A stretch of 64,000 nt of DNA, from the NCBI GenBank assembly GCA_029865385.1, contig JAOUGX010000012.1, forward strand, positions 1 through 64,000. Direction: 5' to 3'. The notes under the pieces are model-generated. The model saw nothing but the letters and a program-made list of their open reading frames with translations, was not told where the DNA came from and ran no database searches. Shown here one piece after another: positions 25,239 through 47,087 of the stretch (positions are counted from its first letter, which is position 1; each line of letters opens with the position of its first letter). Position numbers and translations under genes: made by a program. Source of the stretch: Gammaproteobacteria bacterium. GTDB lineage: Bacteria; Pseudomonadota; Gammaproteobacteria; Steroidobacterales; Woeseiaceae.

Positions 25239-25441
25239 GACAGTCTCCGCGGCGAAGTGTTCGAGCGGACCATTCCGCATTCGTCGTCGCGACGGCCGGT
25301 TCCCGGCTCGTAGTCGCCGACGCGCCGTAGTGGCAGGATTTGCATCCCGGCGGGTGATGACTTGTCATCGAGATTCATGGATATTCTGCCAATGAACGCA
25401 CAAACGAGTTACGATTTCTCCAGCCCCGATCCTGGTTGCCG

Positions 25442-27899: not shown

Positions 27900-28673
27900 A
27901 TGTCGAGATCGATTGCAATCTGCGTGTCGTTGGCGTCGTTGCTGCTGGTTGCCTGCGCACCCGGCAGGACGCCGCCTGGGGAAGATCAGGAATCCCGGCC
28001 GGACGCATCGATCGGGAACCTGACGCCCCATCCCGTCCCGGAGAACCCGTCTCCAGCCGATTTCGCAGCAGCCACAGAACCGACGTTTTCTCCGACCAGC
28101 GTTTTCGATTGCGGGGATACGGCGGGCGGGGCATTCAGTTTCGTCATCAAGGCAGGACCGGGCGAGATTGCCATCTGGTTGCCGCCACGATTCGGCCGGC
28201 CCTATCTGGTACTGGGGCAGTCGGCGTCAGCAAGCGGCGCGAAATTCGAAGGCGACGGGATCACGGTTTGGACTCACGGCGATGAGGCGCTGCTCAAGGT
28301 GGACAATCAACGATTCCAGGGTTGCAGGAAAAATCGCGCCAGGTCGATCTGGGAGCACGCGAAACTCAGCGGAGTCGATTTCCGCGCCGCGGGCAACGAA
28401 CCGGGCTGGTACCTGGAGATTCGCAACAGCGACAGTCTGAAATTCGTTTACGAGTATGGCCAGAACGAACTGCTGGCGCCGGCGCCGGCCCCGATAGAGG
28501 ATCCCGCGTCGCGTCAGGTTACGTACGCGGTGCAGAACGATGCGTACTCGTTAATCGTCCGGATTATCGGAGCGCCGTGTATCGATTCGATGAGCGGTGA
28601 TCAATTCGAATCCCATGTCGTCGTCGACCTCGACGGCAAGACCTACCAGGGTTGCGGCCGCGCGCTGCACTAG
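27900..28673 (+). CDS. Lipoprotein with MliC lysozyme-inhibitor domain and COG3650-like domain
   Basis: From the ATG at 27900, 257 aa with lipobox LVAC. Residues about 60-135 match the MliC family of membrane-bound inhibitors of c-type lysozyme: VFDCGDTAGGAFSFVI, LVLGQSASASGAKFEGDGITVWTHGDEALLKVDNQRFQGC, with the paired cysteines. After that comes VDFRAAGNEPGWYLEI and a C-terminal CIDSMSGDQF... DLDGKTYQGCG, the pattern of the COG3650 envelope domain often fused to MliC. It would sit in the periplasm or on the outer membrane and block host- or predator-type lysozyme. It stands alone with a divergent neighbour. Confidence 0.85.
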   Translation: MSRSIAICVSLASLLLVACAPGRTPPGEDQESRPDASIGNLTPHPVPENPSPADFAAATEPTFSPTSVFDCGDTAGGAFSFVIKAGPGEIAIWLPPRFGRPYLVLGQSASASGAKFEGDGITVWTHGDEALLKVDNQRFQGCRKNRARSIWEHAKLSGVDFRAAGNEPGWYLEIRNSDSLKFVYEYGQNELLAPAPAPIEDPASRQVTYAVQNDAYSLIVRIIGAPCIDSMSGDQFESHVVVDLDGKTYQGCGRALH

Positions 28674-29654: not shown

Positions 29655-32600
29655 GTGAATCCACCAATACTGCTGCGGGTGGGCGCAGCATCCAGGCTTG
29701 CCAGTTTTCTGCTGGCGGCCCTGTTGTCGACATCGCCGCCCACCGGCGCGCAGGAGTTGCCGATTTCCGGCGATCTGCCGGTCGCCAGCGTTACGGTCGA
29801 ACAGCTGGAGGCAGCGATTGAGGACGTCACGTTGCGCGAGAACCTCGATGACGGGATGCGGGCAAAGTCATCGAGCAGTTGCGCGATGCCCAGGTGCAGG
29901 TGCAAGACAGGATCGCTGCTGAAGCCGCAGCCAGGAGTTTCGCAGCGGCATTGGATACGGCACCGGCCGAGACCCGGGCGCTGCGCGAATCCGTCGATGC
30001 AGAGATGCCGGCAGCACCCACCGCCGAATCGCTGGGCATCGATGGCAGCACGACGCTGGCCGATCTGGAACAGAGGCTTGACAGTGAGCTCGCAAAGCGC
30101 ACGGTGAACGAATCCCGACTGGCCGAACTCGCGACGCAGATAGAAATACAGGAAGGCCGCCCCACTGTAGCGCGCGAGCAGATCGACCAGCTGCGACGCA
30201 GCCGGGAAAAGCTATCGGCGGCCGTCGACGCAGCGCCGGTGCTCGGGGAACCGCAGATCCTGATCGATGCGCGCAGGCTCGTCGCCGCCATCAGGAGCCG
30301 TACGCAGGACGCCGAAATCAACAAGCTCGAACAGGAATTGCTGAGCCATGGCGTCCGCCTCGATTTGCTGAGAGCCCGCCGCGACATGGAAGAACATTCG
30401 CATGTCGAAGTGGAAATACGCGTCGAGTTGTTGCGAGGCATCGTCAATGACAGGCGGCAGATGTCGGCGATGCTCGCGCAGCAAGCGGCAGCAGAGGCTG
30501 AACTGGCGGCGTCTGACAAGCCTGCCGTCGTCCGGGAACTGGCTGTGGGAAATGCGGGCCTGACGCGGGAAATGGCATCGATCGCGATCGACATCCAGCA
30601 AACGACCGCGCAACTCGATCAGGCGCGGACGGAAACGGACGTTATCGAAGGACGGTTCACGCGGGCACAGCACCCTCTCGAAGTCGCCGGTCTCAGCCGG
30701 GCGATCGGTCAGCTACTCGTCGAAGAGCGCAGGAACCTGCCTCGCGTCTCGCAGTATCGCGCGCAGGTGCGTGCGCGAAGCCGCACGTTGGCCGATGCTG
30801 GTCTTGCGCAATTGCATATCGATGAGCAACGGCGCGAACTTGCATCTCCGGATGCGAAAGTGCGGAAAGTGATGGCGGAAGTGGCGGCCACGGTCACTGG
30901 TGAGCAGGAACTCGCCGATATTCAGAGTGAACTGAGGCGCTTGTTGACGGATCGCCGCGACTTGCTGATCAGTGCCGAGAAGACTTTTGGTGACTATCTG
31001 CAGCTGCTCGGCGACCTGGATATGGCCCAGCGTCGACTGCTGGAGTCAGCAGATCAATACAAGGAGTTCCTCGACCAGAACCTGTTATGGACTCCTAGCG
31101 CACCGGTCGCATTCACGGGTGTGTGGCAGGACTCTGTGCCGGCGGTCGCGAGAGCGGTCTCGCTTGAGTCGTGGCTGACTACGACTGCCACGCTTTATGA
31201 TGCCCTTCGCGAGAATATGACTCAGGCCGTGGCATGCCTTGTCGTGTTGGTCTCGCTGCTGCTGGTCCGCCGTCCACTCGGGCAACGCTATAAGACGGCG
31301 AGCGCCCTGGTCGGTCGCCCGTCCACTGACAGAATCAGCCTGACCCTCGCGGCTCTCGCCATTGCCGCCACGCGTGCCCTGCCGCTGCCGCTGCTGTTCG
31401 GGGCGATCTCCTGGTTTCTTCGTGACGCGATCCAGCCAACCGTATTTTCGCTCGCGGTCGCGTCTGGTCTCGGGGTCCTGGCGCCGTTCCTTTATAACGT
31501 GCTGCTGTTCCGGGTGCTCGCCGCCACGGACGGTGTGCTGCAGGTCCATTTCGGCTGGCCGAAAGAGGGTCTGGCAGTCATTCGCCGGCAGCTCGATCGC
31601 CTTTCGGCGATCGCCGCCCCGCTGGTATTTGCGACCGTCTTCTTTTACGCGTCCGAGTTTGCTTCAGACCGAGCGACGATGGGGCGGATGGCCTTCGTCG
31701 CCCTGATGGCCGTACTCGTGATGACGTTTCACCCGCTGGCCCATCCCGAATCCGGCGTCGTGGCGACCTATTATCATCGGCGGGCGGGGACGTAGGTTAT
31801 CAAGCTCCGCTGGGTCTGGTACGCGCTGGCGGTTGGCGGGCCGCTGCTGCTGGGCCTGATCTCCTTTCTCGGCTATCTGCACACATCACTGGTCCTGACG
31901 GATCTGCTGGTGGATACGGTGTGGCTCGCGCTCGGGCTGATCGTCGTCGATCTCGTCGTGTTGCGATGGCTCGCGCTGACGCGTCGCAAGCTCGCGCGGC
32001 AAATCGAACTCGGCGAGCGCGAGGCGCGGAGAGCGCAGAGAGAAAAGGACTCGAACCTCGCTGCTGAGGGCGAGGCGCCCGTTGTGATCTCGAAGCCGCT
32101 GGACCTGGATGCCGTCGGTCAGCAGACAAGGAAGCTGCTTCGTTCGGGTCTGTTTTTCGTCGCGGCGCTTGTCGCATGGGGCATCTGGGCCAGGGTGCTG
32201 TCGGCATTCACGCGCCTCGACAATGTATCGCTGTGGTCGCAAACCGTGATCGTGAATGGCGCGGAAATCATCGCGCCGGTGACCCTTGCCGATCTGCTGC
32301 TGGCCGTGCTGGTTTTGGCCGTAACGATGGTCGCGTCCAAGAACCTGCCCGGATTGCTGGAGATCGCGATTCTGCAGCGACTGAAACTGCAGCCCGGGAG
32401 TCGTTACGCTGCCATAACCCTCGTGCGCTATTTCGTCGTCACGGTCGGCGTTTTCTCGGTACTCAATATCATCGGCTGGAACTGGTCGCAGATTCAGTGG
32501 CTCGTCGCGGCGCTGAGTGTGGGCCTCGGCTTCGGCCTGCAGGAGATCGTGGCAAACTTCGTTTCGGGCCTGGTCATTCTTTTCGAACGGCCGGTGCGGA

Positions 32601-33104
32601 TGGGCGATACAGTTACGGTGGGTGAGTTGACGGGCACGGTGTCCAGGGTCCGCATCCGCGCCACGACCATTACCGACTGGGATCGAAAGGAAATCATCGT
32701 GCCGAACAAGTCGTTCATTACCGAGCAGGTGGTTAACTGGACCCTGTCCGACCCGATCACGCGTGTCGTGATTCCCGTTGGCATTTCTTACGGTTCGGAT
32801 GTAGAGCTCGCCCACAAGGTCGTGCAGGATACGCTGGTATCGCAGCCCCTGGTCCTCGACGAGCCGCCGCCGAAAGTGTATTTCATCGGCTTCGGCGAGA
32901 GCTCGCTCGATTTCAAGCTGTATGTTTTCTCACGGCAGCTGGCGGATCGCCTGCCCCTGATACACGCGGTGCACGAGTCCGTGCTCAAGGCGCTGCGGGA
33001 ACGGGATCGAGATCCCGTTCCCGCAGCGCGATCTTCACATACGCTCGACCGTCGATGGCAACCCGCCGCAGACAGGGCGCAGTGACAATAGCTCCGCTTC
33101 ATAA
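29655..33104 (+). pseudogene. MscK/KefA-type mechanosensitive channel gene with three lesions
   Basis: The reading frames together encode an MscK-like protein of about 1150 aa: signal peptide, long periplasmic coiled-coil domain, many membrane helices, then the MscS core. The core is well preserved (AALSVGLGFGLQEIVANFVSGLVILFERPVRMGDTVTVG). Lesion 1: a frame change near 29850-29857, where frame one (ENLDD) must pass to the frame encoding RDAGKVIEQLRDAQ. Lesion 2: in-frame TAG at 31793-31795, probably a TGG Trp codon, after which VIKLRWVWYALAVGG continues in the same frame. Lesion 3: a frame change near 33002, after which GIEIPFPQRDLHIRS, the expected C-terminus, is read up to a TAA at 33102. 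Either a decaying gene or sequencing errors; three independent lesions favour decay. Confidence 0.85.
32990..33029. repeat. Perfect 19-bp inverted repeat at the MscK-like frameshift
   Basis: GCGCTGCGGGAACGGGATC (32990-33008) is exactly complementary to GATCCCGTTCCCGCAGCGC (33011-33029), separated by GA. The second arm encodes the conserved IPFPQR of MscK C-termini in one frame, while the first arm carries the frame change at about 33002. The repeat therefore overlaps coding DNA rather than a terminator. Confidence 0.95.
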
Positions 33105-33273
33105 TGACAGATAGCAGCGCCCATGATACTTGAGATTCCGCCTGCTGATCAGCTGATTGAGTCAATTGCAACGACCGACAACCCGATTCGGGAAAGAATC
33201 GCTGCGCTTGCTTTGTCCTTTCTTCGCACAGGACGGGCACGATCCTAACCAACCAAGAAACGAAGGAATCTTC

Positions 33274-34311
33274 ATGACTATCCGAAACCTGCGATCCGGC
33301 GCAATCACCCTGCTGCTCTGTGGGCTGCTGGTCCTGCCGGCTTATGCGGCAAAAACCGATGTTGTCGTACTGGTCAATGGCAATGCTGTTACCGGGGAAA
33401 TCAAATCGCTCGATTTCGGTTCATTGCGATACGGCACGGATTCAATGGGGACCGTAAACGTCGACTGGCAGGATATTGTCAGCATAACCAGTGATCAGCA
33501 TCTGCAGGTCGAGCTGACGGACGGTAGCCGCTATTTCGGCACCTTGCTGACGCCTGATGAACGATTCCGTATTCGAATTCAAACGGCGACTGACGAGGTC
33601 ACGTTCTCAACCGATGAAATTGTTCGCATCACGCCCATCGAGACATCCAGTCGTTTCGTCGAGCGGCTGGATGGCAGTTTCAGCCTGGGCCTTCAGTCGC
33701 AGAAGTCCAGCGGCGTAATCACATCCAATCTTTCGACGGATGTCGCTTATCGCACGCGCCAGTACCTGGTCGGTTTGCGACTCAATTCCACCATTACCGA
33801 TCAGCGCAATGAGGAAACCAAAGCCCGGCAGAGCGTTGAAACGAATTATCAGCGCTTTCGAAAAAATCGCTGGTTTACGGACTGGTTTACAAGCTGGGAG
33901 AAGAACGATGAGCTGGGAATCAGCTCACGCGTTTCGCTCGGCGGGGCGCTCGGCCGCTATATTGTGCAGAGCAACAAGAATGAATTGTCGGTCACAGCCG
34001 GCGCGCAGGGGGCGCGGGAGAATTTCATCGGCGGGGATGAAAGCGTGACGAACGCGGAAGGCAGAATCGAGGTCCGGTATCGCCGTCGCAATCTGGCACC
34101 GGACACGTCGATCACGTTTACGTCGAAAATATTTCCGCTGATCGAAGACCTGCGCCAATACCGTGCCGAAACTGACCTGATTCTCAGGCGCGAATTTATT
34201 TCAGATCTGTTCTTCGATATCAATTTGGGATATTCCTACAATAGCAACCCGCCCACTGACGCGGCGAAAAGCGACTATGCGCTTACGACGTCGCTGGGCT
34301 ACTCGTTTTAG
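33274..34311 (+). CDS. DUF481 outer-membrane beta-barrel protein
   Basis: A 345-aa protein from the ATG at 33274, with GAAGGA as ribosome site and a signal peptide (LPAYAAKTD). The N-terminal domain has the repeat VLVNGNAVTGEIKSLDFGSLRYGTDSMGTVNVDWQDIVSI then LTDGSRYFGTL, an Sm-like or SH3-like strand pattern found before DUF481 barrels. The C-terminal ~220 residues are barrel-like with a BAM-type end (TTSLGYSF). Two related copies lie at 61198-62268 (intact) and 45534-46647 (broken). Function of DUF481 (YdiY-like) barrels is unknown. Confidence 0.85.
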   Translation: MTIRNLRSGAITLLLCGLLVLPAYAAKTDVVVLVNGNAVTGEIKSLDFGSLRYGTDSMGTVNVDWQDIVSITSDQHLQVELTDGSRYFGTLLTPDERFRIRIQTATDEVTFSTDEIVRITPIETSSRFVERLDGSFSLGLQSQKSSGVITSNLSTDVAYRTRQYLVGLRLNSTITDQRNEETKARQSVETNYQRFRKNRWFTDWFTSWEKNDELGISSRVSLGGALGRYIVQSNKNELSVTAGAQGARENFIGGDESVTNAEGRIEVRYRRRNLAPDTSITFTSKIFPLIEDLRQYRAETDLILRREFISDLFFDINLGYSYNSNPPTDAAKSDYALTTSLGYSF

Positions 34312-34335
34312 CTGAACCGAGCGAGACGCTTGAAC

Positions 34336-34385
34336 GGAAAAAGGTGTCCGGAAAAAGGTGTCGGATTTGTTCGGGAAAAGGTGTC
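34336..34385 (+). repeat. Three direct repeats of a GGAAAAAGGTGTC-type 13-mer
   Basis: GGAAAAAGGTGTC occurs at 34336-34348 and 34350-34362, and the variant GGGAAAAGGTGTC at 34373-34385, then AGATTTTTTT. The repeats lie between the DUF481 gene and the MipA/OmpV gene. They may be iterated protein-binding sites or a dispersed short repeat; they do not look coding. Confidence 0.7.
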
Positions 34386-34491
34386 AGATTTTTTTGCCGG
34401 ATTTGTTTTCCGCCGGCCTTTCCGGTTCTGCATCGGCGGGCTCTTTGATATCATTCCGTGCGCGGCCAGGAATAAGGCAAATTAACCGGCA

Positions 34492-35904
34492 ATGAACTCC
34501 CTCAGGAATATCGCGGCCGCGGCAGGTCGGCTCGCAGCCGTTTCGATCTTGACGATGGGTGCTACGGTCCGTGGCCAGGAGGTGGCGGAGATTCCGTTCA
34601 CGCATGCACCCGAGGGTACCGCGGCACTGGGAGGCGGCCTGCGGTTCGGCCAGAGCCCGTATCGGGCGAGCGATAACTCGGAACTGAGGACCACGGACCT
34701 GATTCCGCTGTATCTTTACGAAGGCAAGTACTTCTTCGTTCACGGGACGGCTGGCGGCATCCACGTCATCAAAAGGGATGCATTCAGGTTCGATCTGTAC
34801 ACCCGTTACCGGTTTCAGAAGCTCGATCCGGCGAGCAATGCCTATTATGCGGGCCTGGAAAAACGCGAGCAGTCGCTCGATACGGGTCTGCAGATGAGCC
34901 TGAACCAGAAGTGGGGAGGGCTCAAACTGACCTGGCTCGCCGGCGCCCTGAACAGGCATAACGGCCAGGAAGTCGAGCTCGCCTATCGATATCGCTACGA
35001 TGCCGGCCCATGGTCGATATCGCCGTACATTTCCTGGAGCTGGCAGAACGACAATCTCACAAATTACTATTTCGGGGTGAGCGAGGCAGAAGCCCGGCCT
35101 GATCGACCTGCCTTTGTGCCGGGCGAATCCGAGTGGGTGTCCGTCGGTCTGAATACATCCTGGCATGCAACAGATCGCATCGTATTCTTTGCGAATTTCG
35201 GTTTTTCCGGCACCGATTCGGAAGTAGTCAACAGCCCGCTTGTCGACAAACCTCGATTCTCGACCGCATTCGTCGGCGGGACCTATATTTTCGGTAATGC
35301 CCGACGACCCGATTACATCATGGACAAGGAGAGGGTCGGTGAATGGTCGTGGCGGGTGAATTACGGTTACCAGGCGGAAGGCAACATCGTAAGCGAGATC
35401 GATCAGGGCGATTTCAGCAAAAGCACCGTCGCCGACGCTAACCTGGGAGGGCTGACGTTCGGGAAATTATTGACGGCCGGGCCCAGGATCGATTTCGTCG
35501 GCAAACTGGCGCTGTTCCGGCATTTCGAAGCAGACGAAGGCAACGGCAATTTCTATAGTTATGCCGCCTACATCATGGCGCGGGGCAAGGGCCATTCGCC
35601 ATGGAGTAAGGAGGAACTGTTTCGCTGGGGCTTTGGTTTCGGCATGTCCTACGCCGAGACCGTCCCGATTGCCGAGCAACGCAAGCAGGCTGCGAAAGGC
35701 AACAACACATCGCGCTTCCTGAACTACCTGGAAATGACGCTCGACTTTCCACTCAAGCGAGTGTCAAAGGCGAACTGGCTGCAACGATGCTATGCCGGAC
35801 TCACACTCGTGCACCGCTCGGGCATCTTCGGCACGTCTGACCTGCTTGGCGATGTGTCCGGTGGCGCAGACTGGATTACAGCGCACCTGGAATGCACCCA
35901 ATGA
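34492..35904 (+). CDS. MipA/OmpV outer-membrane protein with C-terminal extension
   Basis: 470 aa with signal peptide (TVRGQ). Residues about 40-275 are MipA/OmpV-like: LGGGLRFGQSPYRASDN, NQKWGGLKLTWLAG, NDNLTNYYFGVSEAEARPDRPAFVPGESEWVSVGLNTSW and NSPLVDKPRFSTAFVGGTYIF. The last ~190 residues (EWSWRVNYGYQAEGNIVSEIDQGDF to WITAHLECTQ) form another barrel-like region; YAGLTLVHRSGIFG is reminiscent of PagL-type deacylase barrels but I cannot confirm a catalytic dyad. So, like 15603, this may be a two-barrel protein. Its stop codon overlaps the start of the SYLF gene (ATGA). Confidence 0.82.
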   Translation: MNSLRNIAAAAGRLAAVSILTMGATVRGQEVAEIPFTHAPEGTAALGGGLRFGQSPYRASDNSELRTTDLIPLYLYEGKYFFVHGTAGGIHVIKRDAFRFDLYTRYRFQKLDPASNAYYAGLEKREQSLDTGLQMSLNQKWGGLKLTWLAGALNRHNGQEVELAYRYRYDAGPWSISPYISWSWQNDNLTNYYFGVSEAEARPDRPAFVPGESEWVSVGLNTSWHATDRIVFFANFGFSGTDSEVVNSPLVDKPRFSTAFVGGTYIFGNARRPDYIMDKERVGEWSWRVNYGYQAEGNIVSEIDQGDFSKSTVADANLGGLTFGKLLTAGPRIDFVGKLALFRHFEADEGNGNFYSYAAYIMARGKGHSPWSKEELFRWGFGFGMSYAETVPIAEQRKQAAKGNNTSRFLNYLEMTLDFPLKRVSKANWLQRCYAGLTLVHRSGIFGTSDLLGDVSGGADWITAHLECTQ

Positions 35905-36467
35905 GCGCTGATGCGATGATACGCCGATTGATCGGTATCGTTGCGCCGCTTGTTTGCCTGTCGATGGCATCGATCGCGTCCGCGGAATGGCAGGCGAATC
36001 AGAACGACAAGGCGCAGGTCGCGGCGCAGGATGCTATTGCGCGGATAAAAGACAGAATTCCGAGAAGCGCGGGGTACTTCGAGCAGGCCTACGCCTACGC
36101 AATTCTCCCATCTGTAACGCGCGCTGCGATCGGCTTCGGCGGTGCCTACGGCAAGGGGCTGGTGGTCGAGGGCGATGAGCTGATCGGAACGACCGGGTTC
36201 TGGCAATTTACTTCGGGCATTCAGGCGGGCGCGAAGAACTTCAGCATGATCTTGTTTTTCAAAGACAAGGCAGCACTGGAAAATTTCAAGATGCGCAAGA
36301 CGCAATTCTTGGGCCAGGCCGGGCTCACCTTCGCGACTGTCGGTGCCGCCGGCACGCCGGCTTACAACGAGGGAGTCGCGATCATTACGGTCACTCGACT
36401 GGGTTTGATGGGGGAATTCTCCGTATCCGGGGCGAAATTTGACTACAAACCGCTGCACCAGGAGTAG
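35901..36467 (+). CDS. SYLF-domain lipid-binding protein (YSC84 type)
   Basis: 188 aa from the ATG at 35901, which overlaps the upstream stop by 4 bases. A signal peptide (SIASAEW) is followed by a SYLF domain: AYAYAILPSVTRAAIGFGGAYGKGLVVEGDELIGTTGFWQFTSGIQAGAKNFSMILFF, ending in GAKFDY. The domain binds phosphoinositides or other lipids in eukaryotes and is of unknown role in bacterial periplasm. Coupling to the MipA/OmpV gene suggests a shared job at the outer membrane. Confidence 0.88.
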   Translation: MSADAMIRRLIGIVAPLVCLSMASIASAEWQANQNDKAQVAAQDAIARIKDRIPRSAGYFEQAYAYAILPSVTRAAIGFGGAYGKGLVVEGDELIGTTGFWQFTSGIQAGAKNFSMILFFKDKAALENFKMRKTQFLGQAGLTFATVGAAGTPAYNEGVAIITVTRLGLMGEFSVSGAKFDYKPLHQE

Positions 36468-36510
36468 TTGCGCGCCGCCTTTCGATCCGAAAGAAACTAC
36501 GGATTGGAGT

Positions 36511-37668
36511 TTACGGGGATCCGACCCCGACGATAACCGGTATTGCAGTGGAATCGTCCAATTCGGGGCGGTCCGTCGGGTTGTCCTTCCTGAATATCAG
36601 CCTGCCGCGCAAGCCCTCTACCGGGTTCGTGAATGACAGAGTTCCCGTGAAGGGCACGAATTCCTTTGTCATCCATTCTCCTTGTGCGCTAAGGAACGAG
36701 CGGGACAACTCATTGCCCTCGGCATCCTCCAGCGCGACCGGAAAGTCACCTTCGAAAAACCAGGTTCCGCGCGCACGGCCCTTGATGATCAGAGGCGATT
36801 CGATGATGGCGCCGGCCAACGGGGTCTCGACCGAAACGAATTCATCGCGACAATTACCCGCCGGATTAACCTCGACCAGTTTGGCTGCAAAAAAGGCTGA
36901 GGAATGGTCTGCGCCGAAGCCGTCGTGCGGCGGGTCCATGAAACTGCCGGCCAAGACCATGAACAGGGGCGCATACGGCGGCCTCCGGCTCATGCTCTTT
37001 TCGTAACTCGCGCGGATATCCGGCAAGGCAGGCGATTGCCCCAGCAACCACGATTCGTCGTCTCTGTCACACGGTGCGAATGTGCGGACTTCGTGGCCGT
37101 ATGTCACCCAACCCGATTGCTCAGTTTCGGATGGAACCGCGATGAGACTTTGACCGTCGAGAATGGCGAAATGCGTCATGTCGATCGTTGGCGCCGTCGC
37201 AAAGGATTCGGCTGGCCCGCGATCCCTGAAATCAATCGCAATCGCGCGGTTCTGGATTCGCAGGAACTGTGGCGTCACTCTGTCGCCGAGGAGCAGGGCG
37301 TTCGTTCCGCGATAGCCGTCCTCGCCACCGAGGGCTGCAGCGAGGTAATAGAAAGTGCCGCTGCCGCCACCCTGGTAAACCAGGATCACGGCCGCATCGG
37401 TCTCCCGGTCGTCGTCAAGCTCACCGTAGGCCGGAGCACCGAATACTTTGAGGGTTATTTTCGCCGCGGAATCCGGCGCGGCGGGCATCTCGAAACGGCC
37501 GTCGCGCAGCGTAAACGGCGAGCCATCGATGCCGTACGTCGTGTTCAGCGGTCCTGCGTCAGCCCGCCCGGGCGCGATCCCGGATTCGGGCGCTTCGTCG
37601 ACACTGCAGGCGGTGACGGCGAGAATGACTGCCGTTGCACGGCATCCGGTACGTACGGCATTCAGCAT
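36511..37668 (-). CDS. Lipoprotein with C-terminal Gmad2 domain
   Basis: A 385-aa protein with lipobox VTAC. The first ~280 residues have no family I recognise (KVFGAPAYGELDDDRETDAAVILVYQGGGSGTFYYLAAAL is a characteristic segment of secreted proteins with this ending). The C-terminus matches the Gmad2 immunoglobulin-like domain: SVETPLAGAIIESPLIIKGRARGTWFFEGDFPVALEDAEGNELSRSFLSAQGEW and then GRLIFRKDNP. It lies 20 bases after the ecotin gene on the same strand, so the two form an operon. Confidence 0.78.
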   Translation of the reverse strand: MLNAVRTGCRATAVILAVTACSVDEAPESGIAPGRADAGPLNTTYGIDGSPFTLRDGRFEMPAAPDSAAKITLKVFGAPAYGELDDDRETDAAVILVYQGGGSGTFYYLAAALGGEDGYRGTNALLLGDRVTPQFLRIQNRAIAIDFRDRGPAESFATAPTIDMTHFAILDGQSLIAVPSETEQSGWVTYGHEVRTFAPCDRDDESWLLGQSPALPDIRASYEKSMSRRPPYAPLFMVLAGSFMDPPHDGFGADHSSAFFAAKLVEVNPAGNCRDEFVSVETPLAGAIIESPLIIKGRARGTWFFEGDFPVALEDAEGNELSRSFLSAQGEWMTKEFVPFTGTLSFTNPVEGLRGRLIFRKDNPTDRPELDDSTAIPVIVGVGSP

Positions 37669-37688
37669 GCGGTGCGAGGCGCGCGTGC

Positions 37689-38168
37689 TTATTCAGGCGC
37701 GGCGTACCCAACCTCGTCGCGGCCAGTCCAGATGCGATAGCGAACCTCGAAACCTTCGGGAACGTAGACGACCACCGGCAGTTTGCTGTTGTAGGTTTGC
37801 AGGAATCCTTCGCAGGTTACGGCCACGAACCGGTCGACCTTCTGAGACTCCGGCGGGCAGGCCATCATCGTGGACATCGGGCCGACGATCTTCTCGATCA
37901 CGAAATACCGGTATCCCCAGCCTTCGGCGACACGCGACTCCAGGGAGCCGCCGAACGACGTACGGTTGCAGTCCACCGACAGCGTTTTGCCGACGAGGAT
38001 CTCGACCTTGAGGGCGGATTCATCGTTCGCAACCGGCAGGCGGAACACCATGCGTTCGAAGCCGTCTTCCGCGGCTGGGTAGGCGTTCAAAGCGTCGTCC
38101 GTATTGCCGGCACAGGCGATCAGGGGCAGGGAGGCGAGCATTATCAGTGCAATCAGTCTGGCATTCAT
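37689..38168 (-). CDS. eco: Ecotin-family serine protease inhibitor, predicted lipoprotein
   Basis: 159 aa from the ATG at 38168. The domain is clearly ecotin: AYPAAEDGFERMVFRLP, ESALKVEILVGKTLSVDCN, EGWGYRYFVIEKI, PMSTMMACP with the reactive-site Met pair, and YNSKLPVVVYVPEGFEVRYRIW, with the disulfide cysteines kept. Ecotin is normally a soluble periplasmic dimer that blocks trypsin-like and elastase-like proteases. Here the leader ends in LPLIAC, which fits a lipobox, so it may be anchored to a membrane. It heads a two-gene unit with the Gmad2 lipoprotein. A longer upstream frame has no support. Confidence 0.93.
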   Translation of the reverse strand: MNARLIALIMLASLPLIACAGNTDDALNAYPAAEDGFERMVFRLPVANDESALKVEILVGKTLSVDCNRTSFGGSLESRVAEGWGYRYFVIEKIVGPMSTMMACPPESQKVDRFVAVTCEGFLQTYNSKLPVVVYVPEGFEVRYRIWTGRDEVGYAAPE

Positions 38169-38475
38169 CTCGTGGCCTTCATCGATGCTTATCACACGAC
38201 CTGGCTGACACCTCAAATATGCAGCGTCAGAACACGAAGCATGACATATCCGTCGAGGATTGTGCACGATGCACGGCGTCGGCGGTTGGTTCCTGAGCCC
38301 GGCTTGTTCTCACACCACCGTCCGGCGCATCGAGGCATCCATGCTGGATGTGTCAATGCCGAAAAATCAGGAATGTCCCCCATTTGGTTGCTTGCCGGGC
38401 CCCGGCTGCCGTCCGATAGCCTGCTGCAATGTCCGGTCACGTCAAACCAGAACGGCGTGAACGACCATCAGGCCC
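38169..38475. other. Gap between ecotin and the IS30 element
   Basis: 307 bases, containing the ecotin promoter by inference and, at its right end (38434-38475), the displaced last codons of the methyltransferase gene described under 39661-40305. No other gene is seen. Confidence 0.5.
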
Positions 38476-39704
38476 TGCGACTTCAATGGATCGTTGCAAC
38501 ACATTGGTTAAAACAGTCAGCCGGTGTTCGGTAGTTTAACGTCTTTCTTGGCCGACCGTTAAGTTGTCGAGCAACCGCATTGAGTTTGGTTTGTGAGTGT
38601 AACGACAGGTCCGTTCCTTTCGGAAAGTACTGCCTGAGAAGACCGTTAGTGTATTCGTTTGAGCCACGCTGCCACGGACTCTGCGGGTCGCAGAAGTACA
38701 CCTTGATGTCGGTCGCCAGAATAAATCGCTTGTGATCGGCCAGTTCGCTGCCGCGGTCCCAGGTTAGCGACTGATAGAGTTCCTGCGGTAACTTGTGAGA
38801 GTGTTTGATCAAGGCATTGATCACCGTCTCAGTGTCCTTGCTATCAACCTTGACCAACATGACGTAGCGCGTGAAGCACTCCACCGGTGTCGCGATCTGG
38901 CTGTCACGGGTGCCGAAGATGAGATCGCCTTCCCAGTGGCCAGGCAAAGCACGATCCTCAACCGAAGCTGGCCTTTCGCGGATCGATACCGCATCGGTGA
39001 TTTGTCCCAGACCTTCGCCCTTCAAGGTCTTATGCCTTGAGCGACGCATCGCTCGCGTCTTGCGAAGATGCTGCAACAGCTCGTTCTTCAAGGCGCCGCG
39101 GGCCTGGATGAAGAGACTTTTGTAAATCGTCTCGTGTGACACCTGCCGTCTCTCGTCGTTGGGATACGTCGATTTTAGCCAACCCGCTATCTGATCGGGC
39201 GACCATAGCTGCCTCAGCTTAATTGCCACCAGGCTGGCCAGTGCTCGATTCTGGACCAGTTTACAGGTCTTCGGGCGGTGTGCCCGATCCCATGCATTCT
39301 GTTCGGCCGTACTGGCTCGGTAACGTCGCAGGCTGCCGTTGCGGTTCAGTTCTCGACAAACGGTAGACGGTGCTCTGCCCAATGATGCGGCAATAGAACG
39401 AACCGATAGACCTGCAAAAACTCCCCGCGAGATCTCTTCACGTTCAGCCAACGTCAACGATCGTGCTGAACGCTTTCGGGGCGGTGGACGTATCCCGCCG
39501 CTTCGCGCCAATATGCCCTGGATCGATGAATGGCTACGCCCAAAATGACGAGCGATTGAGTTGAGTGATTCGCCTTTCCGCCAGCGATCCCACATCAATG
39601 ATTTATCGCTTTCGGCGTAATAGATTCTCGTTGGATACTTCATTTTCAACATCCTCCTCTCTATAGTGAGAGTCTAGATGTTGCATTGACCGGTTGAAGT
39701 CGCA
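38476..39704 (-). mobile_element. IS30-family insertion sequence, apparently complete
   Basis: A 1229-bp element. The left end (38476-38501) and right end (39679-39704) are imperfect 26-base inverted repeats that both begin TGCGACTTCAA and end TGCAACA when read inwards. The flanks both show C runs (38473-38475 and 39705-39707), compatible with a 2-bp target duplication, usual for IS30. A single transposase gene fills the element. Insertion altered the 3' end of the methyltransferase gene to its right. Confidence 0.9.
38483..39652 (-). CDS. IS30-family transposase
   Basis: 389 aa. The N-terminus has two helix-turn-helix-like segments (RWRKGESLNSIARHFGRSHSSIQGIL and GLSVRSIAASLGRAPSTVCRELNRN), then the DDE catalytic core: LPGHWEGDLIFG, SLTWDRGSELADH and SPWQRGSNEYTNGLLRQYFPKG, giving the D, D and E residues. 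These are the IS30 hallmarks and the frame is intact from ATG to stop, so the element may still be active. Confidence 0.96.
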   Translation of the reverse strand: MLKMKYPTRIYYAESDKSLMWDRWRKGESLNSIARHFGRSHSSIQGILARSGGIRPPPRKRSARSLTLAEREEISRGVFAGLSVRSIAASLGRAPSTVCRELNRNGSLRRYRASTAEQNAWDRAHRPKTCKLVQNRALASLVAIKLRQLWSPDQIAGWLKSTYPNDERRQVSHETIYKSLFIQARGALKNELLQHLRKTRAMRRSRHKTLKGEGLGQITDAVSIRERPASVEDRALPGHWEGDLIFGTRDSQIATPVECFTRYVMLVKVDSKDTETVINALIKHSHKLPQELYQSLTWDRGSELADHKRFILATDIKVYFCDPQSPWQRGSNEYTNGLLRQYFPKGTDLSLHSQTKLNAVARQLNGRPRKTLNYRTPADCFNQCVATIH

Positions 39705-40305
39705 CCCAGAACCAGTCGATCTTTCGTCTGGTCGTGCCGATCGTCTTGAAACCGGCCTGGTTCAGGCGAAGCTCAAGTTCAGTCTTGTTAAAAGTATGTA
39801 CATGTGCGTGGCGGGTAAACGGCAGGATGCCGTTCAGTACTCTCATCCAGAAATAATCCCTGCACCAATCCGTAATCATCAGATGACCGGACGGGGACAT
39901 CACACGCCGAATTTCCCCCAATGCGGATTCGGCATCGGGGAAACAATGCAAGGCGTACGTGCTGGCTACCAGTTGGAAGATCGCATCATCGAAAGGTAGC
40001 TTTGCCGCATCGCCATGCAGCAGCGTTGCCCTGTGCCCGATCCTTCGTCTGGCGACATCAAGCATGGCCGGCACCCGGCCGATGCCGAACAAATCCGGAT
40101 GGTCCGGTCGTTTCGCCAGCATCTCCAACAATTGTCCGGTGCCGCAGCCGACATCCAGAACGCGTTTGGCAGGCAGCTCCGAGATCACATCAAGGCTCAT
40201 CAGAAGCGATCTGCCGAGATAGGTCGACCATCGCGCATCGTACGCGGATGCCCGCGCCGTGTACTCTTTGACAAGCTTCTCTGTGCGGTGTGAGTCGGTT
40301 TGCAT
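39661..40305 (-). CDS. Class I SAM-dependent methyltransferase, 3' end replaced by IS30
   Basis: 214 aa from the ATG at 40305 (MQTDSHRTEKLVKEYTARASAYDARW); the open frame extends further up but without family similarity. Motif I VLDVGCGTGQLLEML, then LLHGDAAKLPFDDAIFQLVAS, ALGEIRRVMSPSGHLMITDW identify a Methyltransf_11-type enzyme. The substrate is unknown. The last ~13 residues (RLQPVNATSRLSL) are encoded by the right end of the IS30 element. Removing the IS and a 2-bp duplication restores KIDWFWGLMVVHAVLV and a stop, a family-like ending. The fold core is intact, so the altered protein might still work. Confidence 0.85.
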   Translation of the reverse strand: MQTDSHRTEKLVKEYTARASAYDARWSTYLGRSLLMSLDVISELPAKRVLDVGCGTGQLLEMLAKRPDHPDLFGIGRVPAMLDVARRRIGHRATLLHGDAAKLPFDDAIFQLVASTYALHCFPDAESALGEIRRVMSPSGHLMITDWCRDYFWMRVLNGILPFTRHAHVHTFNKTELELRLNQAGFKTIGTTRRKIDWFWVRLQPVNATSRLSL

Positions 40306-40726
40306 GGTGCTGTCGAACGCGCGAGGCAGCCGAAGAATCAGTACAGCCATGATAGGCGAAGCCGTGTTGCGTTTTGGAAAACGAACGCCCCAGCCGACGG
40401 GCTTGCGCGACGACAGGCCCAAACGCTCGGGCCATGCGGAGGGGCAATCCGGAAGAAACACCGAAGGTAATGAGGAAGAATCTCGGCTCGACGCGGATTT
40501 CCGCACTGGCAGATACACAGCGGTCCGGAACAGGCCCGGAATTGGCAGGTACCGGTAGCAACGGATGTGCGCCCGGAAATTTGCGGCAGCGCGTGGAGCG
40601 GCTCGATGATGGCAGTTCGTTCAGGGCTGGCTTCCCGCCCGACCCCTTGCGCACACCGGGTACGTGAAATACAGTCCTGAGGCCGATGTCATCGCCGTAC
40701 ATCGAACCAGCCACGGGATCTCTTGC
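40306..40726. other. Divergent intergenic region between methyltransferase and AsmA gene
   Basis: 421 bases that must hold both promoters. Open frames continue into it from both genes (GTG at 40664 for AsmA) but I see no coding evidence. No clear hexamers or operator recognised. Confidence 0.4.
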
Positions 40727-43700
40727 ATGCGCCTAGGTCGAGTTGCGCTTTACGCTGTCGCCGGCCTGGTCGGGCTGCTGCTCCTTGCCCTGATCGTTCT
40801 CCTCAACACCGATCTTGGCCGCTTCAAGCATTCTGGCGAGGACCTTGTCAGCGAGTTGCTCGGGCGGCAATTCGTCATCGACGGTCCGCTGCATGCGAGT
40901 ATCGGTCGCAAGATCGAAGTGGACGCGGAAAATCTTCGCCTTGCTGCGACAGAGTGGAGTGCCGAACCCGACCTGGTGACGGTGCGGCGGGTGACGGCGC
41001 GCGTCGATACCTGGTCACTGGTCAGTGGGCCGATACGCATTGAGAGCCTGGAGATCGACGGCGTACGCGTCGCCCTGGAAACCCGCGAGGACGGCGCCGA
41101 TAACTGGACCCTGGCCGCAGCCGGGGAAGCACCTGAACCGGTCGACGAAGATCTGTCGCGGCCGCAGCTGCCGGTGCTGCTCGACGATGCGAAGATCACC
41201 GACGTACACCTGAGCTTCAACAGCCCCGTAAGGCCGCAGCCGCTGGTTTTCCGCGGGCAGCTGGGCGCCGGGACTTATGCGTCCGCCGACGCTCTGCAAT
41301 TGCATATTGACGGCGCCATCAACGATACGCCGGTCACGATCGAGGCGACTGCCGGGCCCGTCCCACAGCTGATCGATTTTCGAGCGGTGACGTTTACCCT
41401 TGCGGCCAGCCTCGGCGAGATCGAGCTGAACGGCAATGCGGCGGTGGCGGACCTGTGGCAGCCGGCACAGCCGAGCATGACGTTGACACTCAGTGGCCCG
41501 AATGCGGAATACCTTACCGGGATACTGGATCTCGAGCCGATCACGACAGGCCCGCTGGCACTCAGGGCAAGCGTCGGGCCGGTCGGCGAGCGAATGCAGA
41601 TCGGTCTGAACGGTGCATTCGGCGAGTTCGCTCTTGACGCGAGCGGTCACTTCGACAGCCTGAGGTCGCTCGCGGAAATCGAACTGCGCGTCGCGGCAAG
41701 CGGTCCCGACGCGCGAACCGTCGGCGCGCTGCTTGGTATGCCGCAGACGCCGCAGGACCCGTTCAATATCGTCGGCAACGTCACGCGCTCCGGAAATGAC
41801 GTTTCGATCGACCAGGTGGCGATCGTGATCGGCAAGTCTCGATTAGACGTAAAAGGCCACTTCGGCAACTTCCCGGACCCGAATGAGGCGTCGCTGACGC
41901 TGAACATCACCGGTCCGGACTTCGGGCGCTTCAATGCGCTGTTCGGCCTGCCCGGGAAACTGACCGGCCCGTTCAATGTCGATGCAACGATCAAACCGGC
42001 GAGTCCATCCGGTGCCGCGATCGAATTTGCGGCAGAAGCGCAGGACCTTCAGATCACGGCGGTGGGCAGCATTACCGACGCCGAGAATTATGCGGGGACG
42101 ACGCTGCGGCTACGTGCCGCCGGGCCGGACCTCAGGACGGTTGCGACCGCCGGTGGACTGGCGACTGCGCCGGCCGAGGCATTTGACGTCGCCTTGCAGC
42201 TCGATCGAATCGGCGAGGGACTTCGCCTGAGCGAGGGTACGGTTTCAATCGGAACAGACCGCGCGACGTTCAGCGGATTCGTCGGCGACAAACCCCTGGA
42301 GGCAGCCACCGATGTCAGCTTTGCACTGGCGGGACCGAATCTTGCGAAAAGCCTGATCGCATTCGGTGTGGATGCCGACGAGTTGCCGTATGCACGTTAC
42401 GAGGTGAACGGGAGGATCGAGCGTGGCGCCGACGGATTCCTGCTGCATGGTTTGCGTGCGGCTGTCGGTGAACGGCTCGATTATGAGTTGACGGTCGACG
42501 GCCTGATTACGGACGCCGCCGACTATGTCGGCTCGCAGCTTGCCGTCAACGCCCACGGAGCCAGCCTCGGGGCATTGGCCGCCGCTGGTGGCGTCGAGGG
42601 CATCGCCGGTATCCCGTTCAACGCCTCGGCCGAGTTGCGGCGCGTTGAGAACGGTTTCATCGTCAAAGAGGGCCGCGCGAAAATCGGCGACGACCTGTTT
42701 ACGCTGGAGGGCCTGGTCGGTGCCAAACCGCTCGAGCGTGACACCGATATCCGCTTTTCGGCAACGGCCGCCAACCTGAAAGGCACGCTGGCGGCCCTCG
42801 GAACCGTCGTGGAGGCCTTGCCACCGGGCAAGCTGGTCAGCAGTGGCTCGATTCGAAGCCGCGGTGACTATTTTTCGCTCAATAACATGTCGACGACCTT
42901 CGCGGGCGCAAAAATCGACCTTGCCGGCCGCGTGGGCAGCTTCCCGACCCTGAATGGTACGGATCTCACGCTGCGCGTCAGCGGTGCCGATCTGTCGCGC
43001 GTGCTGCCGCCGATGGACGCGATCCGCGCCCTCGACAAGCCGTTCAGCCTCGATACAATGATCCGGCTGAAGGGCGACGTGCTCAGGGTGGACGACCTGC
43101 GCTTCAAAGTGGACGACACCTCACTCTCGGCGGATTTCGAAACGGCGATGAAACCGACGCTCGGCCGTGGTCGTTTTTCGATTACCGCAGACTCGCCCGA
43201 CATACTCCGGCTGGTGCCGAAAATGGCCGAAGTCTCGGTTGTGGAAAGCGACCCGCTGACACTCAGGGCGGGCGGCAAATGGGCTGGCGACCTCTGGACG
43301 TTCGACGAATTATTCCTGATGCTGGGCAAGGGCACGCTGACCGTGAAGGGCAGCATCGATCGTCCGCCGGACTTCGATCGCACCGATCTCAGTTTCAATC
43401 TGGATGTCGCGAGTTTGCGCAACCTGAGTCTGCTCGCACGTCGCGAACTTCCCGCCGACTCGGCCCACCTGGAATTTCGCCTGGACGGTACGCGCGAAGC
43501 GATGACGCTGCAGGACTTTGCCGGCACTTTCGGCGACAGCGATATCGCGGGAAGTTTCGTTTGGCGCGATACCGGCAAGACGGACCTGGACGCCACGTTC
43601 ACTTCGAGGCGCCTGAATCTCGCGCCCTATCTGCCCGAGCCCGGAGATGAGCCGGAAAAGCCTGCTCCGTCCGGCGAGAAGAAAACCAGGGTCATTCCCG

Positions 43701-44623
43701 ATACGCCGCTGCCGATGGACAAGCTCGCCAATATCGAGGCATCGGTCAACTTCAATTTCGGCGAGGTGGTCCTGAAGCAGCGCTCAATCGAAAATGTCGT
43801 GCTGGAGGCTTCGGTGCACGACGGTGTCCTGCTGGTGTCGAAGTTCAGTCTCGCAAACACCGTCGGCGGCAGCTTGTCTGGCGCGCTCAGGTTGCGGCCG
43901 CTCGATGGCGGCGGCGACCTGTTGCTCGATGTCCAAGGTGCAGGGCTGACGATGGCATTGCCGGCGGAGACCCCGGAGGAACTCGCCGCGCTGCCGAAGT
44001 TCGATCTCGACACCGTGCTGGCCGGGAAGGGCAGGACCGTCCGCGAGCTTGCCGGGTCACTCGGCGGTTATGTACGGCTGACCGGCGGCGAGGGGCAAAT
44101 ACGCGCGTCGGCAATGCGTTTCCTCGCCAACGACTTCCTGTTTGAACTGATGAACACGCTCAACCCGTTCACGAAGTCCGATACGCATACCGCTGTAAAA
44201 TGCACTGCCGCTCTGCTCGCGGCAAACGACGGCGTCATCTCTGGTAAACCGGCGGCCGTCCTGCAAACGGACCGGATCCAGATTTTTGCCAGTACCACGA
44301 TCGACCTCAAGACCGAGAAGCTGGATGCCGACATCAAGACCGTGCCGCAGAAAGGTCTCGGTGTGAGTTTTACGGATCTCGTCAATCCGTATACCAAGCT
44401 TAGCGGCACGTTAGCGAACCCATTATTGATCCTGGATCCAAAAGGCGCCCTGGTCGAGGGTGGCGCCGCTATTGCAACGGGTGGCATCTCGTTCCTGGCC
44501 ATGCGCTTCAAGGATCGATTCCTGAGCGCCAAGGATCAGTGCGGCAAGGCCGTCGAGGACGCGAACGCGGATTTCGCGGCACTCAGGGAAAAATACCGGC
44601 CGGGCTCATCGAAGCCGAAGTAG
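40727..44623 (+). CDS. AsmA-family protein
   Basis: 1298 aa from the ATG at 40727; a GTG at 40664 could add 21 residues. A single N-terminal membrane helix (VALYAVAGLVGLLLLALIVLLNTDLGRF) anchors a long periplasmic part that consists of repeated beta-strand units with motifs such as LDVKGHFGNFPDPNEASLTLNITGPDF and the C-terminal AsmA domain (KGRTVRELAGSLGGYVRLTGGEGQIRASAMRFL, then NPLLILDPKGALVEGG). Such proteins belong to the bridge-like lipid-transfer group that moves phospholipid between the membranes. It ends about 110 bases from the DUF4136 pseudogene, and a degraded copy of its last codons lies at 56917-56955. Confidence 0.93.
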   Translation: MRLGRVALYAVAGLVGLLLLALIVLLNTDLGRFKHSGEDLVSELLGRQFVIDGPLHASIGRKIEVDAENLRLAATEWSAEPDLVTVRRVTARVDTWSLVSGPIRIESLEIDGVRVALETREDGADNWTLAAAGEAPEPVDEDLSRPQLPVLLDDAKITDVHLSFNSPVRPQPLVFRGQLGAGTYASADALQLHIDGAINDTPVTIEATAGPVPQLIDFRAVTFTLAASLGEIELNGNAAVADLWQPAQPSMTLTLSGPNAEYLTGILDLEPITTGPLALRASVGPVGERMQIGLNGAFGEFALDASGHFDSLRSLAEIELRVAASGPDARTVGALLGMPQTPQDPFNIVGNVTRSGNDVSIDQVAIVIGKSRLDVKGHFGNFPDPNEASLTLNITGPDFGRFNALFGLPGKLTGPFNVDATIKPASPSGAAIEFAAEAQDLQITAVGSITDAENYAGTTLRLRAAGPDLRTVATAGGLATAPAEAFDVALQLDRIGEGLRLSEGTVSIGTDRATFSGFVGDKPLEAATDVSFALAGPNLAKSLIAFGVDADELPYARYEVNGRIERGADGFLLHGLRAAVGERLDYELTVDGLITDAADYVGSQLAVNAHGASLGALAAAGGVEGIAGIPFNASAELRRVENGFIVKEGRAKIGDDLFTLEGLVGAKPLERDTDIRFSATAANLKGTLAALGTVVEALPPGKLVSSGSIRSRGDYFSLNNMSTTFAGAKIDLAGRVGSFPTLNGTDLTLRVSGADLSRVLPPMDAIRALDKPFSLDTMIRLKGDVLRVDDLRFKVDDTSLSADFETAMKPTLGRGRFSITADSPDILRLVPKMAEVSVVESDPLTLRAGGKWAGDLWTFDELFLMLGKGTLTVKGSIDRPPDFDRTDLSFNLDVASLRNLSLLARRELPADSAHLEFRLDGTREAMTLQDFAGTFGDSDIAGSFVWRDTGKTDLDATFTSRRLNLAPYLPEPGDEPEKPAPSGEKKTRVIPDTPLPMDKLANIEASVNFNFGEVVLKQRSIENVVLEASVHDGVLLVSKFSLANTVGGSLSGALRLRPLDGGGDLLLDVQGAGLTMALPAETPEELAALPKFDLDTVLAGKGRTVRELAGSLGGYVRLTGGEGQIRASAMRFLANDFLFELMNTLNPFTKSDTHTAVKCTAALLAANDGVISGKPAAVLQTDRIQIFASTTIDLKTEKLDADIKTVPQKGLGVSFTDLVNPYTKLSGTLANPLLILDPKGALVEGGAAIATGGISFLAMRFKDRFLSAKDQCGKAVEDANADFAALREKYRPGSSKPK

Positions 44624-44664
44624 TTCGATCTCCCGGCTACGAATCACCATTATCCGGCAACCCC

Positions 44665-44687
44665 AAAAAGGCCCGCATGACGGGCCT
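44665..44687 (-). terminator. Rho-independent terminator on the minus strand
   Basis: Read on the minus strand, AGGCCCG, loop TCATG and CGGGCCT are followed by TTTT; arms lie at 44669-44675 and 44681-44687 and the A-run of the plus strand at 44665-44669. It sits about 50 bases after the stop of the DUF4136 pseudogene and would end that transcript; it could also act weakly on AsmA transcripts as a hairpin. Confidence 0.8.
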
Positions 44688-44734
44688 CGTCGTCCTTGCC
44701 TGGAGCGGGCTGCCGCCTTGGCGAAACAGGCAGG

Positions 44735-45316
44735 CTAGGGCTTGCCACCGGGCCGAATGGGAAAGCCTCGCATGACATTCGCAACGGCGTCGTCGACGGT
44801 TCTCTCCATGTCGCGAATATCCTTGTCCGTCAATCTTCCGGCGATGGCTCCCTCCCAGACAAGTTTCTTCGTCGACGCATCGACAACGTCGATGTTCAAT
44901 GTGCCTTCCGTGTATTGATCGATGCGCGTTTCCTAGCCCATACCCATTCCGTAGCCACCCCAAGGACCGTAAAACGGATCACGATAGCCGTAATAGCCGC
45001 CGGCGGACGGTACCGATCTCGCCTTGATCTTTTCCTTTGTATTGATGTAGAAATTGACAAGCAATTGAGGATCGTCCTCATCGAACATCAACCCGCGAGC
45101 GTCAAATTGCTGCGCCACGGCCACCTTGAGGAAATTGCTGACCAGAGATTCGTATTGCCCTTTATCGGTCGACAGCTTGGGAAAGTAGCCGAACGATTTG
45201 TACTGGCTGAAATCGACGGATGGGTCCGCGTTTACAAAAGTATTGGGTGTCCAGGCACAGGCGGACAGAAGCAAGCTTGCCGTGATCATCAGTGCCCGGG
45301 TCATCATAGAATTCAT
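44735..45316 (-). pseudogene. DUF4136 lipoprotein gene with one nonsense codon (block C)
   Basis: Frame from the ATG at 45316 to TAG at 44735 has exactly the length of the intact copy at 59298-59879 (193 codons). The only visible defect is a TAG replacing the TAC Tyr codon in GYGMGMG-Y-ETR, at about 44933-44935. The rest (ETRIDQYTEGTLNIDVVDASTKKLVWEGA) is still in frame. The truncated product would keep the lipoprotein signal and N-terminal half but lose the C-terminal strands. It is the least damaged of the pseudogenes here. Confidence 0.9.
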
Positions 45317-46647: not shown

Positions 46648-47087
46648 TTCTTTAGCCGCAGGCTGTTGTTTGTAGTTGCTGTAGCGGACAGGTCAGGAAT
46701 ATGCCATCGCTACTGGTATTGCGTAGGACCGGGTAATGGTTCATGCGTCAAGCAGCATGCGTCGTCTGCTTGCCAAACGTCCGCTCCGCGGTTTCGCGAC
46801 AAAACGTCCCGGGACCAGGTCAACGGCCGGCGTCGCCAACGCGCCGGGCAGACCGCCGATCGTCTCGATGCCGGGCCACAAAAGCCTGCAGGGCAGAAAT
46901 ACGAACAGTTGAGCCGGCAAAGTCGTCTTTGGCATATTTATCGCGGCATTCCATTCGACCACGGACATTGAACGACGATAGTGGCAGAGGAGCAAAAGTA
47001 CCCGATAGGTGTGCGAGAGTCGCCAGGCAGGCAATCGAAGCGGTATGCTTGCGGCAACAGCTGATATTTGACCAGGAGCGAAACAGA
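46648..47087. other. Divergent intergenic region of block C
   Basis: 440 bases between the DUF481 pseudogene and the phospholipase-D-like gene. The ~50 bases before the ATG at 47088 resemble the matching stretch of block D (62889-62938). At roughly 46860-46935 a minus-strand stretch encodes a Leu/Phe/Pro-rich string; see the 62580-62657 entry. No intact gene is seen. Confidence 0.4.

Follow-up and report, generated by a model that had tools for sequence, protein, structure and literature searches.

Among bacterial serine-protease inhibitors, ecotin serves as the model, and it is described as soluble and periplasmic. In E. coli, it is held to guard the periplasm against neutrophil elastase crossing a damaged outer membrane (PMC9904509), and a similarly protective view is taken of Salmonella ecotin (PMC11977995), as given in the accessible parts of both papers. 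The ecotin of P. aeruginosa was reported in the biofilm matrix, protecting against neutrophil elastase (PMC5893882, accessible part). The first-pass annotation of the present locus started from the premise that known ecotins are soluble and periplasmic, which agrees with the accessible parts of these papers (PMC9904509, PMC7773321, PMC5893882, PMC11977995), except that P. aeruginosa ecotin is partly matrix-bound. A lipoprotein ecotin was not found described in the titles and abstract openings of the open-licence papers naming both ecotin and lipoprotein, and ecotin never appeared alongside the lipobox or signal peptidase II in the open-licence literature. Judged by title, none of the open-licence papers naming ecotin together with lipidation deals with a lipidated ecotin.

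The window, i.e., the whole 64,000-nt stretch of DNA analysed, encodes an ecotin whose leader runs up to a cysteine (Table 1). This leader has rather probably become a lipoprotein (Sec/SPII) leader. The recurrence of the lipobox among ecotins is a more interesting point than the window case alone.

The window ecotin and its leader

The gene lies on the minus strand where the first-pass annotation had placed an ecotin, and its product matched Ecotin PF03974 in the Pfam profile search (E = 1.3e-44; 151.5 bits vs. a cut-off of 22.2; residues 27–148) and passed the NCBIfam equivalog NF002987 (183.2 bits; cut-off 162). The nearest solved structure is ecotin 2y6t (E = 1.9e-40), a match that leaves little doubt about the fold. 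The annotated reactive loop, with Met at P1, and both disulfide cysteines were likewise recovered (residues 99–104; C67 and C104), while a third mature cysteine, C119, had been missed. In E. coli ecotin, the intra-subunit disulfide joins C50 and C87 (PMC7773321, accessible part). Among 191 mature ecotin domains, two cysteines were counted in 188 and none in two, and the window ecotin alone has three; its C119 is probably unpaired. A C19–C119 disulfide was considered and dropped, since cleavage by signal peptidase I would discard C19 and cleavage by signal peptidase II would leave the C19 thiol lipidated. Its sequence makes the window ecotin a conventional member of the ecotin family of broad-range serine-protease inhibitors.

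Table 1. Positions of the ecotin gene, its parts and neighbouring or compared genes (window coordinates unless a locus is named).
Feature	Position	Strand	Basis
Ecotin gene, 159 aa precursor	37689..38168	(-)	Pfam and NCBIfam profiles
Leader peptide M1-A18 (MNARLIALIMLASLPLIA)	38115..38168	(-)	Sequence
Lipobox L16-I17-A18-C19, Pro15 at −4	38112..38123	(-)	Loose pattern match
Overlapping A18-C19-A20, candidate site for signal peptidase I (cut before G21; Pro15 at −6)	38109..38117	(-)	AXA rule
Canonical disulfide cysteine C67	37968..37970	(-)	Sequence comparison
Reactive loop STMMAC, residues 99-104	37857..37874	(-)	Letters identical to solved ecotins
Canonical disulfide cysteine C104	37857..37859	(-)	Sequence comparison
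Extra cysteine C119 (VTCEG)	37812..37814	(-)	Third mature cysteine
Shine-Dalgarno-like AAGG	38176..38179	(-)	7 nt upstream of ATG at 38168
Gmad2-domain protein, lipobox-like leader LAVTAC	36511..37668	(-)	Gmad2, E 4.5e-11
Lipobox protein (LVAC), MliC domain at 28200-28307	27900..28673	(+)	PF09864, E 1.9e-6, over cut-off
Transposase gene, upstream of ecotin	38483-39652		HTH_38 and rve domains
g10 ecotin/LysR-like entries	L218 3149-4039; L220 3406-4311; L002 574-1464		By eye

The leader reads MNARLIALIMLASLPLIAC(19)|AGNTDD, with Arg4 as the positive n-region, nine uncharged residues directly preceding C19, and a mean hydropathy of 2.35 across the ten residues before it. Lipoboxes are described either by the loose pattern [LVI][ASTVI][GAS]C or by the strict PROSITE pattern PS51257. 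The first-pass claim that the leader ends in LPLIAC and fits a lipobox holds for the loose pattern, which L-I-A-C matches, but the strict pattern fails because of the Pro at −4. As a yardstick, 25 E. coli K-12 reference lipoproteins were used, the box being placed at the earliest suitable Cys that has [AGS] at −1 and is preceded by no charge, two features that this choice itself imposes. The strict pattern was passed by 25/25 and the loose one by 20/25; neither Pro at −4 nor Ile at −2 occurred in any of the 25, while Leu stood at −3 in 20, Ala at −1 in six and Ala at +2 in three.

Across the surveyed loci, 75 lipobox-like leaders were found by a scan pattern that overlooks leaders with a nearby second Cys, e.g., that of the L102 ecotin, and five of them carry Pro at −4. 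These are two ecotins (those of the window and L104), two neighbour genes (in L011 and L102) and one frame in L013 that is probably spurious. The neighbour genes, APLSAC|DAQ (L011) and LPLTAC|FDQ (L102), which are predicted lipobox leaders, have the Pro at −4 without an AXA site there. Thus, Pro at −4 seems unusual yet tolerated. Similar boxes also occur in other leaders of the window, namely LVAC|AP (the MliC-type protein), LTAC and LGAC. The Pfam lipoprotein-attachment models matched 0/10 leaders, canonical boxes included, and are thus uninformative. A mixture model of our own, built on 72 leader cysteines, gave the window ecotin a posterior of 1.0; it was overfitted, rejecting the clear lipoboxes LAGC|GGRAY and FAGC|TPSP and giving TLAAC 0.40, and its posteriors were not used.

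An A-X-A motif with Pro at −6 makes a good signal peptidase I site. A type I cleavage site at another position had been named by the first-pass annotation as evidence against a lipid anchor; the competing site found, A18-C19-A20|G21, overlaps the lipobox itself. A cut at A20|G21 leaves nine residues before the YP motif, a spacing equal to that in the soluble sister L005 (HVSA|ADEATDMQPYP), and C19 occupies the X position of the A-X-A in L005. The window ecotin may therefore be an ordinary soluble periplasmic ecotin in which signal peptidase I discards C19 and the Cys at −2 is there by chance. The AXA site with Pro at −6, the mature length shared with L005 and the failure of the strict lipobox pattern all agree with this, although Lgt normally acts on a lipobox Cys closing the h-region before any other processing step takes place.

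Lipobox leaders among other ecotins

Ecotins were collected from the window's relatives, order, class, family and phylum and from four other taxa, plus regional fetches. The genome-contig scan contributed the best 80 of 582 relatives, with a bias towards the query and Pseudomonas, and the viral-contig scan contributed one ecotin locus. With the window ecotin as probe, 194 of 196 loci were readable (L116 and L156 were excluded), giving 156 distinct leaders; some loci represent one genome twice (L005 = L011; L060 = L106). Ecotin is rare near the window, being found in 4/107 genomes of the family, 3/296 of the order sample and 8/369 of the class sample, each count including the window's own genome. 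The viral locus, L091 5001-5390, is an ecotin with an ordinary leader on an IMG/VR contig counted as viral. The nearest homologue of the window ecotin, in L011 near 4986, seems to start either with ATA behind a good GGAGG or with an upstream GTG; an unusual start codon or an error in the sequence may explain this.

A survey of ecotin leaders had been proposed as a check, and it revealed that the lipobox is not unique to the window, with 11 other credible cases among the 194 loci. These 11 fall into three groups, bringing the credible lipobox leaders to 12. The first comprises L002 and L092, two species of another genus in the window's family, both with LIGAC|A. The second comprises six ecotins of genus g337 in family f175 (L102, L104, L140, L169, L175 and L179), whose leaders read LPL[AV]AC|A[AS]TPEALKP. 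The third is formed by L160–L162 of family f225, outside the window's class, with LAAC|AT or VTAC|AT and a stretch of 23–24 residues up to the YP-type motif. Genus g337 is probably Pseudomonas, since the f175 ecotins group with named Pseudomonas ecotins. An ecotin match was obtained in 65/149 genomes of the g337 search, and the LPL[AV]AC leader in 5/63 of those read; the sixth, L104, came from a separate search. The remaining g337 ecotins are taken to have ordinary leaders in which a cysteine turns up here and there, as in L176. Two Rhizobium plasmid ecotins, read separately, also have ordinary-type leaders.

The credible set is a matter of judgement. Rule-based labels assigned the 194 loci to 'lipo' (22), ambiguous (8), 'none' (162) and leaderless (2), and taking every flagged leader Cys as a lipobox was rejected. 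Eleven of the 22 'lipo' loci were kept (L001, L002, L092, L102, L104, L140, L160, L161, L169, L175 and L179), together with L162 from the ambiguous ones, of which L052, L093, L094, L101, L146, L147 and L150 were dropped. From the 'lipo' label, L033 and L051 were dropped for an AXA site soon after the Cys, L066 (Kluyvera) for a plain AXA site seven residues on, L103, L149 and L151–L154 (one f202 group) for several AXA sites, and L060 and L106 (one species, LNGC) as uncertain. L107 and L163 (SGSC) fail the lipobox rule and are of uncertain status.

A tree of 61 mature ecotin domains was built by a quick method, with 10 rows from the credible lipobox set. On the best tree, the credible set of 12 needs four changes, but the starred branches alone force only one; therefore, a single origin followed by losses is compatible with the tree. 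The wider rule-based label needs nine changes, of which the starred branches force five. The g337 lipobox group is one starred branch (four rows for six loci), with the Cys in 6/6, and L002 and L092 share a starred branch with L003. L160–L162 form one branch with a support of only 67. In the same-family genome G298 (L003 1468-1881, minus strand; L220 4301-4717, minus strand), the ecotin frame opens directly with the domain and has apparently lost its leader, although its upstream flank is like that of L002 by eye. The window ecotin itself groups with L005, L012, L013 and L024 on a branch that is not starred (88), and the absence of a lipobox from all four of these nearest relatives favors the soluble reading; in the fifth nearest row, L033, the leader Cys was rated uncertain. 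Since these relatives have no lipobox, selection on the window ecotin's own Cys cannot be demonstrated.

The Cys is kept in the other lipobox groups while the leaders around it diverge. Between L002 and L092, the h-region is identical at 2/10 positions and 11 of 23 codons carry nonsynonymous changes, with LIGACA unchanged; between L160 and L162, the h-region is identical at 3/10 positions, with 15 nonsynonymous changes and the Cys kept through TGC/TGT. In g337, the Cys is kept in 15/15 pairs at a mature identity of 0.69–0.98, and the residues following it are kept as well; the Cys is thus not singled out by conservation in this group. The control set consisted of 138 soluble leaders, from which [AGS]C leaders had been excluded beforehand. 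At −2 of the cleavage site inferred for them, 17 different residues were seen; the rule that placed this site is crude, clearly misplaces it in at least one leader (L043) and thus adds spurious diversity. The same −2 residue was shared by 590 of 4365 soluble pairs (14%) at 65–82% mature identity, these pairs not being mutually independent. A Cys at −2 occurred in 0/138 soluble leaders, which carries no weight against the soluble reading, as [AGS]C had been excluded in advance. On balance, the comparison supports a functional Cys in the other lipobox groups, and this conservation speaks against a chance Cys in the window ecotin. In contrast, the lone A-C-A of L176, in an otherwise soluble group, indicates that such a Cys can arise sporadically and speaks for it. 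Taken together, an ordinary soluble ecotin is a doubtful reading that nonetheless keeps appreciable weight.

All 12 credible lipobox ecotins carry Ala at both −1 and +2, above the frequencies in the E. coli reference lipoproteins. Ala is favored by GC-rich genomes. The retained Ala pair may just be a relic of an A-X-A site out of which the lipobox was formed, or the site may still serve signal peptidase I. In the latter direction, processing could be mixed, part of the protein being lipidated at C19 and part cut at A20|G21, which would give an anchored and a soluble pool; the exact overlap of the two sites (x-A-C-A) and the invariant Ala pair fit this, but a signal peptidase I cut beside an Lgt-modified Cys is not expected, and mixed processing is very unlikely. 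In view of this invariant Ala pair, lipidation of the window ecotin at C19 is rated as moderately probable. The membrane tether proposed by the first-pass annotation is plausible, given the lipobox leader and the recurrence of this architecture with a conserved cysteine, though the overlapping signal peptidase I site and the atypical −4 and −2 residues leave it short of certain.

Surroundings of the ecotin gene

The gene of the Gmad2-domain protein starts 20 bp downstream of the ecotin stop. This pair, its two members 62% and 61% identical to those of the window, is kept in G394 (L005/L217), the genome also represented by L011 (JAOTYY010000057.1, Gammaproteobacteria bacterium 21_Jan_SF_Bin59). 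The pair does not always come with an anchor, for the ecotin leader of G394 is ordinary and its Gmad2 partner has MVSDC as its box. The Gmad2 protein was matched in 16/149 relatives, its own genome included, the other matches being partial and at most 41% identical. The G394 contig also encodes a PLD-family protein with a lipobox leader, 37% identical to that at 46743-48626 of the window, and a lipobox protein that matches residues 149–257 of the MliC-type protein in the window at 39% identity. A stretch of about 6 kb (L217 8286-14327) holds the PLD-family gene, ecotin, Gmad2, a transporter-like frame and the relative of the MliC-type C-terminus, and four of these genes have homologues within about 21 kb in the window. 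The transposase gene upstream of the ecotin is one which we take to be IS30-type. The patchy occurrence of ecotin, the presence of the pair in another family and the nearby insertion element suggest that the ecotin gene was gained by transfer. No near match to window positions 30000–45000 was found among plasmids, and the search for a phage or viral origin gave one short unannotated phage record (49% protein match) and one viral contig.

The first-pass annotation had also joined the ecotin to an MliC-type lipoprotein 10 kb away; the gene and its lipobox are present, about 9 kb off on the other strand, and nothing in the analysis connects the two in function. That an anchored ecotin is exposed at the surface and paired with this lysozyme inhibitor against predators or hosts is improbable in the extreme, for although the two genes lie some 9 kb apart in the window and a homologue of MliC-type residues 149–257 lies within about 3 kb of the G394 ecotin, the window genes are on opposite strands with several intervening genes, the G394 match excludes the MliC stretch, no export-to-surface signal was identified, and g10 lipobox ecotins adjoin a LysR-like gene instead. 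In the g10 genomes, by eye, the ecotin stands tail to tail with a LysR-family-like regulator, unlike its context in the window.

Several other genes of the window were recorded in passing. Positions 25436-26485 encode a pentameric ligand-gated ion channel homologue (Neur_chan_LBD, E = 4.9e-19; Neur_chan_memb, E = 1.8e-11). A large MscS-type channel is split across the frames 29879-31795 and 31910-33085, with MscS_TM positions 6–186 in the first and 230–339 in the second. Three LssY_C-domain proteins with lipobox leaders, apparently paralogues, are encoded at 11737-13071, 12993-14189 and 51363-52697, and two DUF481 proteins at 33157-34311 and 61198-62358.

Proposed route to the membrane and known systems

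From the sequence, we infer for the window ecotin a lipidation route, a membrane side, target proteases and a biological role. The precursor would be exported by Sec. Lgt modifies the Cys of a Sec-exported precursor, and LspA then cuts before it; here, Lgt would transfer diacylglycerol onto C19 and LspA would cleave ahead of it, followed by N-acylation. By default, a proteobacterial lipoprotein without Asp at +2 is delivered to the periplasm-facing inner leaflet of the outer membrane. Since the +2 residue is Ala, not Asp, Lol transport would deliver the lipidated ecotin to that leaflet, and the surface defence suggested by the first-pass annotation accordingly finds no support here. A linker of about 10 residues, similar in length to that of soluble ecotins, would hold the inhibitor dimer at the periplasmic face of the outer membrane, where the dimer could trap foreign trypsin-, chymotrypsin- or elastase-like proteases breaching the membrane. 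Once anchored, the inhibitor would stay where the membrane is breached instead of being lost to the medium. The most likely origin of the lipobox would be an A-X-A site for signal peptidase I whose X became Cys, leaving x-A-C-A.

The sequence change needed to anchor an ecotin is small. As a tentative proposal, lipid-anchored ecotins may form a real recurrent class with multiple origins, of which the window ecotin would be a recent and separate case, the Cys lying at or beside the middle of an A-X-A and the inhibitor being held at the outer membrane. If several lineages did anchor ecotin independently, its location rather than its specificity would be under selection, which bears on what ecotin protects and where, i.e., at the outer membrane, in the matrix, in vesicles or in the periplasm.

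A conceptual parallel is found in E. coli, where an MliC-type lipoprotein and periplasmic Ivy put a putative anchored inhibitor beside a soluble one; the MliC-type inhibitor has lysozyme as its target and a fold different from that of ecotin. Omp19 of Brucella, which we take to be unrelated in sequence to ecotin, and the C1s-directed lipoproteins of Borrelia, which are not ecotins, offer functional comparisons. Omp19 is a lipid-anchored lipoprotein presented as aiding against host proteolytic defence (PMC6607954, accessible part), and the Borrelia surface lipoproteins, acting on the complement protease C1s, are likewise directed at a serine protease (PMC9637899, PMC9060444, accessible parts). 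The ecotin of P. aeruginosa is also partly kept near the cells outside the periplasm, but it is described as bound there by the polysaccharide Psl rather than by a lipid (PMC5893882, accessible part). E. coli ecotin shares with the window ecotin a near-full-length inhibitor domain, the STMMAC loop and both disulfide cysteines; in contrast, it reaches the periplasm by a 20-residue signal peptide (PMC9904509, accessible part), whereas the window ecotin has the C19 lipobox and an extra cysteine.
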